A stretch of DNA of 39,955 nt, taken from a virus. Both the position numbers and the translations under genes were made by a program. The DNA lies in the IMG/VR virus record IMGVR_UViG_3300032291_001784, positions 1 through 39,955 of that record; one strand, 5' to 3'. Below the pieces are notes generated by a model. The model saw nothing but the letters and a program-made list of their open reading frames with translations. It had not been told where the DNA came from and did no database searches. Below are positions 152 through 39,955 of the stretch, one piece after another (within the stretch, counting starts at the first letter, position 1; each line of letters starts with the position of its first letter).

Positions 152-163
152 GAACATGTGTTC
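152..163. promoter_or_regulatory. LexA/SOS-type box GAAC-ATGT-GTTC
   Basis: The 12-mer GAACATGTGTTC has the GAAC-N4-GTTC form of LexA operators known from Bacillus and mycobacteria. It lies 47 bp upstream of the -35 of the first rightward promoter, inside gene-free DNA. Eight fixed bases are expected about 0.6 times by chance in 40 kb, but only about 0.01 times in the control region. No phage repressor is recognised, so host LexA is the likely ligand if the site is real. Confidence 0.45.
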
Positions 164-180
164 TATTTGGTATTGTTACA

Positions 181-199
181 TTGTTAAGAAATCTTACAA
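181..199. promoter_or_regulatory. Imperfect inverted repeat near early promoter
   Basis: TTG-T-TAAGA, AA, TCTTA-CAA: 8-bp arms with one bulged base. It shares the TTAAGA-N2-TCTTA core with 39511-39524 and ends 10 bp before the -35 box at 210. Candidate operator. Confidence 0.4.
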
Positions 200-209
200 T
201 AAAAGGGTA

Positions 210-238
210 TTGACAAGCACGAAGAGGCGGGGTATGGT
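210..238 (+). promoter_or_regulatory. Early rightward promoter P1
   Basis: TTGACA (210-215), a 17-bp spacer and TATGGT (233-238). This is a close sigma70-type match just downstream of an AT-rich stretch and 63 bp before the first early start codon. It is the strongest promoter seen for the + strand operon. Confidence 0.75.
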
Positions 239-300: not shown

Positions 301-525
301 ATGGGAAAGAGCAGAAAGACAACGGCAAGGGAGACCCTCGCCATGTTTGAGGCAGAGCGCAAGAGTCTGGCAGACTTGGGGCATGTCATGAGTGCATGGA
401 CGCTCAGGGTTGCAGACTCTTACCCCTCCGCTAAGTGCTACAACTGCTCAGGGGTTGTTCAGAATGAGGGGGTAGTGTTCATGGAGTCCGCTACCCTTCG
501 CGGGCAGTGCCCGCGGGGGTATTGA
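301..525 (+). CDS. Small early protein with CxxC
   Basis: 74 residues. The start at ATG 301 is set by the strong site AAGGAGG eight bases before it; the reading frame is open further upstream but has no comparable site. The N terminus is basic (GKSRKTTARE) and a CYNC pair lies near the C terminus, so one half of a metal site is possible. No family is recognised. It is the first gene of the rightward early operon under P1, a position where small host-directed or regulatory proteins are common, but no function can be assigned. Confidence 0.65.
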   Translation: MGKSRKTTARETLAMFEAERKSLADLGHVMSAWTLRVADSYPSAKCYNCSGVVQNEGVVFMESATLRGQCPRGY

Positions 526-4781: not shown

Positions 4782-5356
4782 TGACGGAACAGGATGCACT
4801 CAATCTAGTAATGGAGGCGATGAACTCGCCGTACACAAAGGTAAACGATGGCGGCGAGCTCCACCCAAACAAGGACGATGGCTACGTGCTAGACGAAATG
4901 CCAGAGGGTGTCGTATGGATTGCCTCACGTCCAAACGCAGTGTTGATTGGCAAGGAGAAGTATTCTTACCATCCGTGGGTCGAGATCGTCCTTGAGGCGC
5001 AGGATCGTGTATACTCACTTGTCCAACGGGGACACGCTAAGGCTCGTGCGGTCGTAGACCAGCACTACGAGATGGCTCTAACTTGTGATGACTGTGGGCT
5101 ATGGTCTGCCATAGGACACAGGTCGACGAGAGATAAGTTCTCTAGCGAGTACGAGTCTGGTGCGCTGACTGCTGCGGAGTCATGTGATCCGCAATCGGTA
5201 CACAAACTCTTTGGCAAGCCGTTTGATCCTGAGTCAGCATTTGATCGGGGCGAGCAAACAGATTACGGGGACAAAGAGCGACAGCAAAATGGTCTAAGCC
5301 AAATCTGGAATACAAAGCGGAGGGAAAAAAATGCGGCAGCCGCCAAGAAGCGTTGA
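4781..5356 (+). CDS. Hypothetical protein upstream of helicase
   Basis: 191 residues from ATG 4781. The frame is open further upstream, but that part lies over other genes and lacks a ribosome site; TGATG coupling fixes this start. It contains one CDDC pair and a lysine/arginine-rich C terminus (NTKRREKNAAAAKKR). The last 26 bp overlap the helicase start. Its position next to a helicase would suit a replication accessory, but no loader-type ATPase motif is present. No family recognised. Confidence 0.7.
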   Translation: MTEQDALNLVMEAMNSPYTKVNDGGELHPNKDDGYVLDEMPEGVVWIASRPNAVLIGKEKYSYHPWVEIVLEAQDRVYSLVQRGHAKARAVVDQHYEMALTCDDCGLWSAIGHRSTRDKFSSEYESGALTAAESCDPQSVHKLFGKPFDPESAFDRGEQTDYGDKERQQNGLSQIWNTKRREKNAAAAKKR

Positions 5357-6641
5357 GGCAGAGGTAGGACTGATCGGGTCATGCCTCATTGACGCGGACG
5401 CTGCGTCATTAGCATCGGACATCACACCAGCGGACTTCTCCAAGCCAAGCAATGGCTACGTATGGAAGGCAATCCTTGCCTTGCAGCAGCGTGGAGATGT
5501 ACTTGACGTGGTGTCGGTCGGGGAGGAGCTCGCCCGCAGTGGGCACCTCGAAGATGTCGGTGGCTATGCGTGCCTCTCCGACTTCATGGCGATGACCCCG
5601 ACGAGCGCCAACGCCAGCCAGTATGCGGACTCCGTTCGCACGAAGGCGACGCTGCGCCGCATCCTTGCTGCGGCAAGCCGCATCTCGGAGATTGCGTACG
5701 CTGACCCAGCCGATGCGAACGAGGCACTTGACAAGGCAGAGGCTGAGATCTATGCCGTCGCTCGCTCAGTCAAGAAGTCTGACTTCGCTGGCATGTCGTC
5801 GCTGGTACAGGATGCAGTCTCAAAGCTGGATTGGATTCGGCACAACAAGGGTGGCGGCAGGGGCGTAGGCTCTGGCCTTGCCGCCCTTGACGAGATGACA
5901 GGCGGCTGGCAGCAGTCCGACCTCACCATCTTGGCGGCTCGACCGAGCGTTGGTAAGACGGCGATGGCACTCAACATCGCGCAGCACGCCGCCATCAAGG
6001 AAGGCAAGCGCGTAGCGATCTTCTCGCTGGAGATGAGCAAGGATCAGTTGGCGACCCGCCTCATGGCTGGGGTCTCTGGCGTAGACATCTTCCGTATCCG
6101 ACGCGGCGACGTTGAGGGTATGGACTTGGCTCGCATCGCAGCAGCCGTGTACCACTTGGAGACAGCAAGCATCTTCATCGACGACAGCCCAGTCGCCTCA
6201 CCTGTAGACCTGCGCTCAAAGGCGCGTCGTCTTGCGGCAGATGGTGGACTTGACCTCATCGTCGTGGACTACCTGCAACTCATGATGCCCACGAAGCAGA
6301 CGAAGGAGGGCAACCGCGTAGTCGAGACCTCCGATATCAGCCGTGGGCTAAAGGCAATGGCGCGTGAACTCAACGTGCCAGTCATCGCCTTGTCGCAGCT
6401 CAGTCGAGCAGCCGAGCATAGAGAAGGAGGCCAGCCACGATTGGCTGACCTCAGAGACTCTGGTGCAATTGAACAGGACGCTGACCTAGTGATGCTGCTC
6501 TGGCGCCCGAACGGACAGGAGCATGGGCAGGCACGGGAGCGAGTCAAGTTGTCGCTGTCGAAGCATCGCAATGGTCCGACTGGAGAGATTGATTTGGTCT
6601 TCGTCAAGGCGACGACGACCTTTAGCGAAGGAGACTTGTAA
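5331..6641 (+). CDS. dnaB: Replicative DNA helicase, DnaB type
   Basis: 436 residues, close to usual DnaB length. Residues 4-120 are the DnaB N-terminal domain (SVEAEVGLIGSCLID). The RecA-like domain has Walker A ARPSVGKTA at 203-211, the catalytic FSLEMS at 231-236, Walker B IVVDYLQL at 310-317, ALSQLSR at 353-359, and the arginine finger region LRDSGAIEQDAD around 374-385. All key residues are present. It forms a hexamer that unwinds DNA 5' to 3' at the fork. No phage primase, polymerase or loader was found, so it probably recruits host replication proteins. Start ATG 5331 follows GGAGG; it overlaps the gene before it by 26 bp. Confidence 0.97.
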   Translation: MRQPPRSVEAEVGLIGSCLIDADAASLASDITPADFSKPSNGYVWKAILALQQRGDVLDVVSVGEELARSGHLEDVGGYACLSDFMAMTPTSANASQYADSVRTKATLRRILAAASRISEIAYADPADANEALDKAEAEIYAVARSVKKSDFAGMSSLVQDAVSKLDWIRHNKGGGRGVGSGLAALDEMTGGWQQSDLTILAARPSVGKTAMALNIAQHAAIKEGKRVAIFSLEMSKDQLATRLMAGVSGVDIFRIRRGDVEGMDLARIAAAVYHLETASIFIDDSPVASPVDLRSKARRLAADGGLDLIVVDYLQLMMPTKQTKEGNRVVETSDISRGLKAMARELNVPVIALSQLSRAAEHREGGQPRLADLRDSGAIEQDADLVMLLWRPNGQEHGQARERVKLSLSKHRNGPTGEIDLVFVKATTTFSEGDL

Positions 6642-6964: not shown

Positions 6965-7005
6965 GACCCCTACCTGTGTTGTGTCAGGTAGGGGTCACTC
7001 TTTTT
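6965..7005 (+). terminator. Strong intrinsic terminator of the rightward operon
   Basis: GACCCCTACCTG, 8-base loop, CAGGTAGGGGTC: a perfect 12-bp stem followed by ACTCTTTTT. On the + strand this is a classical rho-independent terminator. Read leftward it has the stem but no U tract. The 3' arm overlaps the stop of the last leftward gene (6995-6997), so the two operons converge on it. Confidence 0.92.
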
Positions 7006-7201
7006 CGCAGGCTGGGCAGCTACCAAAATACTTACCAGCGTGGTCGTGCATGGCGGACAGCGGCAGGTCAGAGGGAATCTCTCGCCCGACGAGGGTTTCG
7101 TAGATGATGCCGTTATCTCGGCACCACTGGCGCAGGGACTTACCTTCCGCGATGGCCTTAGCGCGGAATAGTTCCCTGATCTGTTCGTCCTGCTCGCTCA
7201 C
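6995..7201 (-). CDS. Small HTH-like protein with CxxC tail
   Basis: 68 residues, GTG start (7201). Residues about 15-35 (AIAEGKSLRQWCRDNGIIYETL) look like a helix-turn-helix. A CPAC pair lies at the C terminus. The first 44 bp overlap the upstream gene, more than usual here, so the start could lie further inside. Last gene of the leftward unit. A role in gene regulation is possible but not shown. Confidence 0.6.
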   Translation of the reverse strand: MSEQDEQIRELFRAKAIAEGKSLRQWCRDNGIIYETLVGREIPSDLPLSAMHDHAGKYFGSCPACEKE

Positions 7202-39375: not shown

Positions 39376-39382
39376 TCTTAAT

Positions 39383-39398
39383 CTGGCCTAGCGGCCAG
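39383..39398 (-). other. Hairpin just before the first leftward gene
   Basis: CTGGCC-N4-GGCCAG, a perfect 6-bp stem, ends 7 bases upstream of the start codon at 39375. In leftward mRNA it would sit over or next to the ribosome site, which itself looks weak, so it could affect translation. Confidence 0.35.
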
Positions 39399-39510
39399 AG
39401 CGAACTCTATTGAGTGAGAGACCAATCTTGTGGAGGGTGAGTTCGTTGCCCCCTCTGTGTCTCCCCCATATAACCAGAAAAAGGGGGTGTTTTTGACAAA
39501 AATAACATGG

Positions 39511-39524
39511 TTAAGATGTCTTAA
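39511..39524. promoter_or_regulatory. Inverted repeat TTAAGA-TG-TCTTAA, candidate operator
   Basis: Perfect 6-bp arms around a 2-bp centre. A related element with the same TTAAGA-N2-TCTTA core lies at 181-199, beside the rightward early promoter. The pair lies on the two sides of the divergent control region, which fits operators for one regulator; this is inference. Confidence 0.4.
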
Positions 39525-39568
39525 TCTTTCTAAGGGAGGCTGTTGAGCACAACTTAACAGGGTTGCGT

Positions 39569-39597
39569 TAACAACTAGGGGTGAAACCCTAGTCAAA
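39569..39597 (-). promoter_or_regulatory. Weak candidate leftward promoter
   Basis: On the - strand TTGACT (39597-39592) is followed after 17 bases by TGTTAA (39574-39569). The -35 matches five of six consensus bases but the -10 is poor. It is the best leftward candidate seen upstream of the gene starting at 39375, and a promoter for the long - strand operon is expected about here. Confidence 0.25.
39574..39593. other. 7-bp perfect hairpin
   Basis: ACTAGGG, a 6-base loop GTGAAA, then CCCTAGT. There is no U tract on either strand, so this is not a standard intrinsic terminator. It lies between the iteron/G-rich segment and the first leftward gene and overlaps the weak candidate leftward promoter. 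Confidence 0.5.
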
Positions 39598-39680
39598 AGG
39601 GGGGTGGCCTTATCAGAAGGGGTGTTCATTGCGGGGTTGGGTGTTCCTTACTTAAACGCGCACCCCCTCAGACATGCTAC

Positions 39681-39781
39681 GGGGGGAGGGGGGATGTTAA
39701 GAATCCGCAACCTGCACGACAAGGGGGGTTGTCCTGTTAGACAAGGGCGCTTGTCGAGGGGGGAGGGGGGAGAAGGTGGGG
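39681..39781. repeat. G-rich tracts with quadruplex potential
   Basis: The 13-mer made of six G, one A and six G occurs at 39681-39693 and 39758-39770. The second is followed by AGAAGGT and four more G (39778-39781). Between them a 6-bp hairpin, GACAAG-GGCG-CTTGTC, lies at 39740-39755. The tracts have enough G runs to form a quadruplex on the + strand; whether they do is untested. Confidence 0.5.
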
Positions 39782-39795
39782 CGATACCCCCTCTC

Positions 39796-39879
39796 TGGCA
39801 CAACCCGTGCCATCCCTAGCATAGACTGGCACAACCCGTGCCACCATGCCCCCGCCAAGCACTGGCACAACTTGTGCCA
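39796..39879. repeat. Three palindromic iterons
   Basis: Three 17-bp elements with perfect 6-bp arms, TGGCAC-N5-GTGCCA, lie at 39796-39812, 39827-39843 and 39863-39879, with start-to-start distances of 31 and 36 bp. The first two share the core AACCC; the third has AACTT. The third recurs at 31-47 in the left terminal repeat. Spaced palindromes in a gene-free region fit binding sites for an initiator, repressor or packaging protein. Which protein binds is not visible. Confidence 0.85.
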
Positions 39880-39955
39880 TCTGAACACCCCTCAACGCGC
39901 CACGGAGCGCCCCGATAATCGCAGGGGGGTACATACACCCTACCCCGCCCGTTTC
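39833..39955. repeat. 123-bp terminal direct repeat, right copy
   Basis: Exact copy of bases 1-123, ending at the last base of the window. With the left copy it gives a unit length of 39,832 bp if the molecule is circular. Confidence 0.97.

Follow-up and report, generated by a model that had tools for sequence, protein, structure and literature searches.

A conserved LexA-box-like dyad in the divergent control region of uncultured freshwater-type tailed phages

The genome studied is an IMG/VR record of an uncultured tailed phage, and the window, by which we mean the whole stretch of DNA analysed, comprises 39,955 bases. Bases 1-123 are identical to bases 39833-39955, forming a 123-bp terminal direct repeat, and because the ends are identical the record probably represents an essentially complete genome, about 39.8 kb long and either circularly assembled or terminally redundant. 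The genome ends meet within a divergent control region. Small early genes extend rightwards from about position 301 up to a DnaB-like helicase gene (5331-6641), and the leftward genes include those for terminase, portal, major head protein and tail proteins, as well as ERF recombinase, a Cas4-like exonuclease, RmlC/RmlD/epimerase and glycosyltransferase genes. Sugar genes occur at several sites in this 40-kb phage (8263-8826, 11448-12407, 12404-13249, 18389-19648, 32088-32627 and 32530-33051), and the set consists of an RmlC-like epimerase, an NAD-dependent epimerase, an RmlD-like reductase, two glycosyltransferases and a cytidylyltransferase-like gene. The phage group presumably inhabits freshwater, judging from the record series. 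The features of the divergent region are as follows:

152..163, no strand: dyad GAAC-ATGT-GTTC, GAACATGTGTTC, a candidate LexA operator with a palindromic core and an R-N-R-Y spacer
160..167, + strand: right arm and flank GTTCTATT, invariant in a six-genome alignment; opposite-strand half-site AATAGAAC
173..200, + strand: promoter-like TTGTTA-N16-TACAAT in an AT-rich stretch, a consensus match only (9/12)
184..195, no strand: second dyad TAAGAAATCTTA (TAAGA-NN-TCTTA), in a stretch also kept in L005 and L025, both of which lack the GAAC box there
210..238, + strand: P1, early promoter-like TTGACA-N17-TATGGT, sigma-70-like, 10/12 consensus matches
301..525, + strand: first likely early ORF, 3' of P1, with its start preceded by AAGGAGG
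39378..39629, - strand: first leftward ORF (or a conserved leader), across the divergent region from P1

The leftward ORF at 39378..39629 yielded no family match and served as the anchor for locating the divergent regions of related genomes.

The element at 152-163, GAACATGTGTTC, is a perfect 12-base GAAC-N4-GTTC dyad lying in the divergent intergenic region, exactly as given in the initial annotation, which had also placed it 47 bp before the -35 hexamer of P1. The upstream position stands, with TTGACA at 210, and the gap is 46 bp, leaving box and P1 without overlap. The corresponding gap to the early -35-like hexamer is about 38 bp in L006 and about 59 bp in L008 and, since the box does not cover P1 and this gap varies, occlusion of P1 is not supported. 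The promoter-like sequence at 173..200, weaker than P1, begins only 9 bp 3' of the box and could be the target of the candidate operator; all promoters in the phage are consensus matches only.

Other repeated elements occur around the box. Dyads of the type GTTAAGA-NN-TCTTAAC recur across the divergent region at 39512-39527, 39697-39712 and 183-198, one copy being the hybrid GTTAAGAATCCGCAAC, and they are candidate sites for another regulator. Upstream of the box, the palindrome TGGCACAACCCGTGCCA / TGGCACAACTTGTGCCA is present in three copies, at 39796-39812, 39827-39843 and 39863-39879 (the last is also 31-47), similar palindromes recur in L008, L025, L188 and L013, and they may constitute an operator or iteron. 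Moreover, the early promoter-like block TATTGACACCCCGCCC.. is repeated at 520-551 and 1424-1455, before early genes, and it is found also in the relatives L004, L006, L018 and L023.

An exact match within the window is, by itself, weak evidence for an operator. Three exact GAAC-N4-GTTC dyads occur there, at 152, 2464 and 25030, versus 0.6 expected from dinucleotide shuffles, and at least three were found in 1.7% of the shuffled windows. The dyads at 2464 and 25030 were rejected as operators and attributed to chance or coding, since each sits within an ORF and has no R..Y spacer. What exceeds chance is the comparative evidence. Relatives, all of them metagenomic in the tables examined, were gathered from scans with the helicase, an SprT-like metalloprotease and the large terminase, and 11 of 19 related genomes carry the dyad in their divergent region, compared with 0.24 expected and a maximum of two in 1000 shuffles; one of the 19, L195, was included after its site had been seen, and excluding it gives 10/18. 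Six genomes aligned at the orthologous position (the window, L008, L006, L018, L004 and L100) show no change in GAAC or GTTCTATT, but differ in the four bases of the spacer and in the left flank. A second box position near the leftward leader is occupied in L006, L111, L012 and L013; L195 also has a box, two relatives (L025 and L188) carry tandem boxes 25 bp apart, and degraded boxes occur at or near the main position in L109, L111 and L116. No box was found at the divergent region of L005, L108, L114, L122, L123 or L011; L108 and L114 have, in its place, direct AATAGAAC half-sites which LexA would not obviously use. Sites in L090, L091, L094, L095, L099 and L102 were not counted as the same element, as they lie in another context and occur near the chance level estimated for the pattern. 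Conservation in relatives, which the initial annotation had named as a check, is real, although several relatives lack the box, and the dyad is a strong phylogenetic footprint with the character of a conserved operator-like element.

The form of the site points to a particular class of regulator. Gram-positive LexA boxes, as exemplified by the Bacillus subtilis consensus, carry an RNRY spacer. Among the phage boxes, 15 sites with 10 distinct spacers, the pattern R-N-N-Y is followed without exception (10/10), the window's spacer being ATGT, and it holds for 39 of the 44 GAAC-N4-GTTC sites that lie before or close to actinobacterial lexA genes, compared with only 3 of 15 distinct other matches to GAAC-N4-GTTC in these phages. 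Tandem boxes, spaced 26-34 bp apart, are common near actinobacterial lexA genes, and the variant GTAC-N4-GTTC, which is seen in degraded phage boxes, also precedes lexA in L415. Core, spacer signature and the tandem arrangement in two relatives support assignment to the Gram-positive or actinobacterial type of LexA box.

The flank is the weak point of the LexA reading. The SOS box of Streptomyces venezuelae LexA is tCGAAC-N4-GNNCGa (PMC9380542). The phage sites, as candidate LexA operators, resemble the actinobacterial and Gram-positive SOS box in the GAAC-N4-GTTC core, the R-N-N-Y spacer, the intergenic location and the tandems of two relatives, but they differ in lying upstream of the best promoter rather than over it, and in their outer bases: the actinobacterial box is CGAAC..GTTCG whereas the phages have AGAAC..GTTCT (TGAAC..GTTCT in the window). 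Most actinobacterial boxes conform to CGAAC..GTTYG, a consensus that may not be that of the host, and of the 30 phage half-sites 23 are AGAAC; in the window, the left half has T. When 396 actinobacterial genomes were surveyed for TAGAAC-N4-GTTCTA, a few small ones proved to have three to four sites each, with no kinship to the phage's host implied. The sequence precedes ruvC and nadK-recN in G397 and G339, and sites at ruvC, nadK-recN and other genes for repair or chromosome maintenance are contained in loci L391-L404 (G397, G219, G283 and G339). Degenerate boxes with AATAGAAC precede lexA in G397 (L415), a chromosome of 1,543,805 bp that would fit Atopobium (Lancefieldella) parvulum, and in which ruvC, ruvA, the NAD kinase gene and recN were named by NCBIfam. 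The occurrence of A-flanked boxes at ruvC, nadK-recN and lexA indicates that an A-flanked SOS box exists within the actinobacterial phylum. The reading of the site as a LexA box in the initial annotation is partly supported: the fit to a Gram-positive LexA operator extends to core, spacer and tandems but not to the C flank of most actinobacterial boxes.

The phage also lacks a recognisable integrase or repressor of its own, as the initial annotation had noted. Tyrosine integrase (PF00589), HTH_3 (PF01381) and S24 LexA/CI peptidase (PF00717) domains were all absent from 17 phage records (the window and 16 others), which include two of the L084/L092 type and several fragments. Bacillus thuringiensis phage GIL01 provides a precedent, as a non-integrating temperate phage controlled by host LexA (PMC4551915, PMC6182141). 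The logic proposed here is comparable to that of GIL01: no integration, LexA boxes in an early control region and the host damage response as the switch. GIL01 differs in having a small linear genome, the co-repressor gp7 and a phage LexA homologue, whereas the present phage is tailed; the 17 records share with GIL01 the combination of no integrase and no CI-like repressor but yielded no LexA homologue, the window itself having no match to TIGR00498. A small gp7-like partner is of a kind not recognisable by sequence. The GIL01 boxes lie downstream of the P1 start, and here the box is upstream of P1. Phages bearing sites for host CtrA or Spo0A show lytic deferment (PMC9437464), and they too carry host-regulator sites in a phage control region that time lysis, a role for which the present site is a candidate only. 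There the cue is the cell cycle or sporulation and, for CtrA, binding has been measured; here the regulator is another one, the proposed cue is DNA damage and binding is predicted.

In the strongest competing explanation, a regulator encoded by the phage itself uses the dyad as its operator, recognises the half-site AATAGAAC and controls divergent transcription; it would be a small early or late protein unseen by Pfam and PHROGs. In favour of this, a TATT is conserved behind the right arm and L108 and L114 carry direct half-sites, features that exceed a standard LexA box; many early proteins belong to no family and one ORF, 6995-7201, gives a weak HTH match. However, the record of L005, which lacks the box, encodes nearly all of those conserved proteins of the present phage that fall within the 19.7 kb it spans, and carries ORF 6995-7201 at 100% identity, and the R-N-N-Y spacer rule fits the boxes upstream of lexA genes. 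Among the records, several of them fragments, no conserved phage protein was found to track the presence of the box. We consider a phage-encoded regulator unlikely, though worth keeping in mind.

A role for the dyad as part of a replication origin, or as a DNA-structural element bound by an initiator, appears improbable. An AT-rich island adjoins the box in a region of 62% G+C, partial DnaA-like sequences (TTATCCAAA) are present in L008, L004 and L111, a phage DnaB is encoded downstream and iterated TGGCACAAN..TTGTGCCA-like palindromes occur nearby, but a dyad with an N4 spacer obeying the R..Y rule is the signature of a repressor site, the window itself has retained no DnaA-like site and no gene for an initiator was recognised. 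A chance palindrome, or one retained by descent without function, is very improbable: although the window would be expected to hold 0.6 exact dyads, its other two matches lie in ORFs, whole-genome counts do not exceed the reversed control and several relatives have no box, the arms stay invariant while spacers and flanks change and 11 of 19 regions carry the dyad against 0.24 expected. A sigma-factor site, with GAAC followed by GTT some 18-19 bases on, was set aside, given that L084/L092 have about 25 bases there and that such a site would not require the GTTC arm to be retained.

The core of the dyad is also seen in another phage type. The L084 and L092 families, belonging to another freshwater-type group, carry in intergenic DNA the GAAC dyad core followed by TATTT, and their likeness is partly by construction since the search pattern required GTTCTATT and a nearby TTRTT. 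These two related families have in common a 42-bp block that includes the GAAC dyad (1257-1297 in L084 and 2556-2597 in L092), but its orientation with respect to the rest of their shared sequence is opposite in the two. L092 also encodes a weak homologue (34% identity) of the small early ORF 903-1109. Its terminase shares 42-45% identity with those of Streptomyces phages, a hint of actinobacterial hosts. The terminase of the present phage gave no match to a host among genome contigs, and among the 396 actinobacterial genomes it found a single weak match (E 4.7e-7), a terminase-like ORF of G344 that gives no useful link to a host. Comparison of capsid, DnaB, terminase, early, Cas4-like and glycosyltransferase proteins with those of cultured phages gave distant matches or none.

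On balance, we infer that the dyad probably serves as an operator for host LexA. The rightward early genes and the leftward structural genes are separated by the control region in which it sits, where LexA bound in an undamaged host would dampen or delay transcription from the divergent region. Such action would probably not involve covering P1, but would operate via the AT-rich segment and promoter-like sequence just 3' of the box or affect leftward transcription; alternatively, LexA could affect access to a possible origin. On DNA damage, RecA-triggered cleavage of LexA would release the brake and favour lysis. We infer both the sign of the regulation and its link to DNA damage.

More tentatively, and with somewhat less than even confidence, we propose that in these uncultured freshwater-type tailed phages, which have no recognisable integrase or repressor, host LexA is the only switch and defers lysis until damage occurs, with the same operator present also in the L084/L092 type from the same habitat. 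If this is true, phages that seem strictly lytic would sense damage to host DNA, for example by UV in sunlight, through a repressor owned by the host, and UV exposure would be tied to viral lysis in surface waters. Metagenomes could then be searched for such phages by a sequence signature, and their host groups might be guessed from the bases that flank the box.
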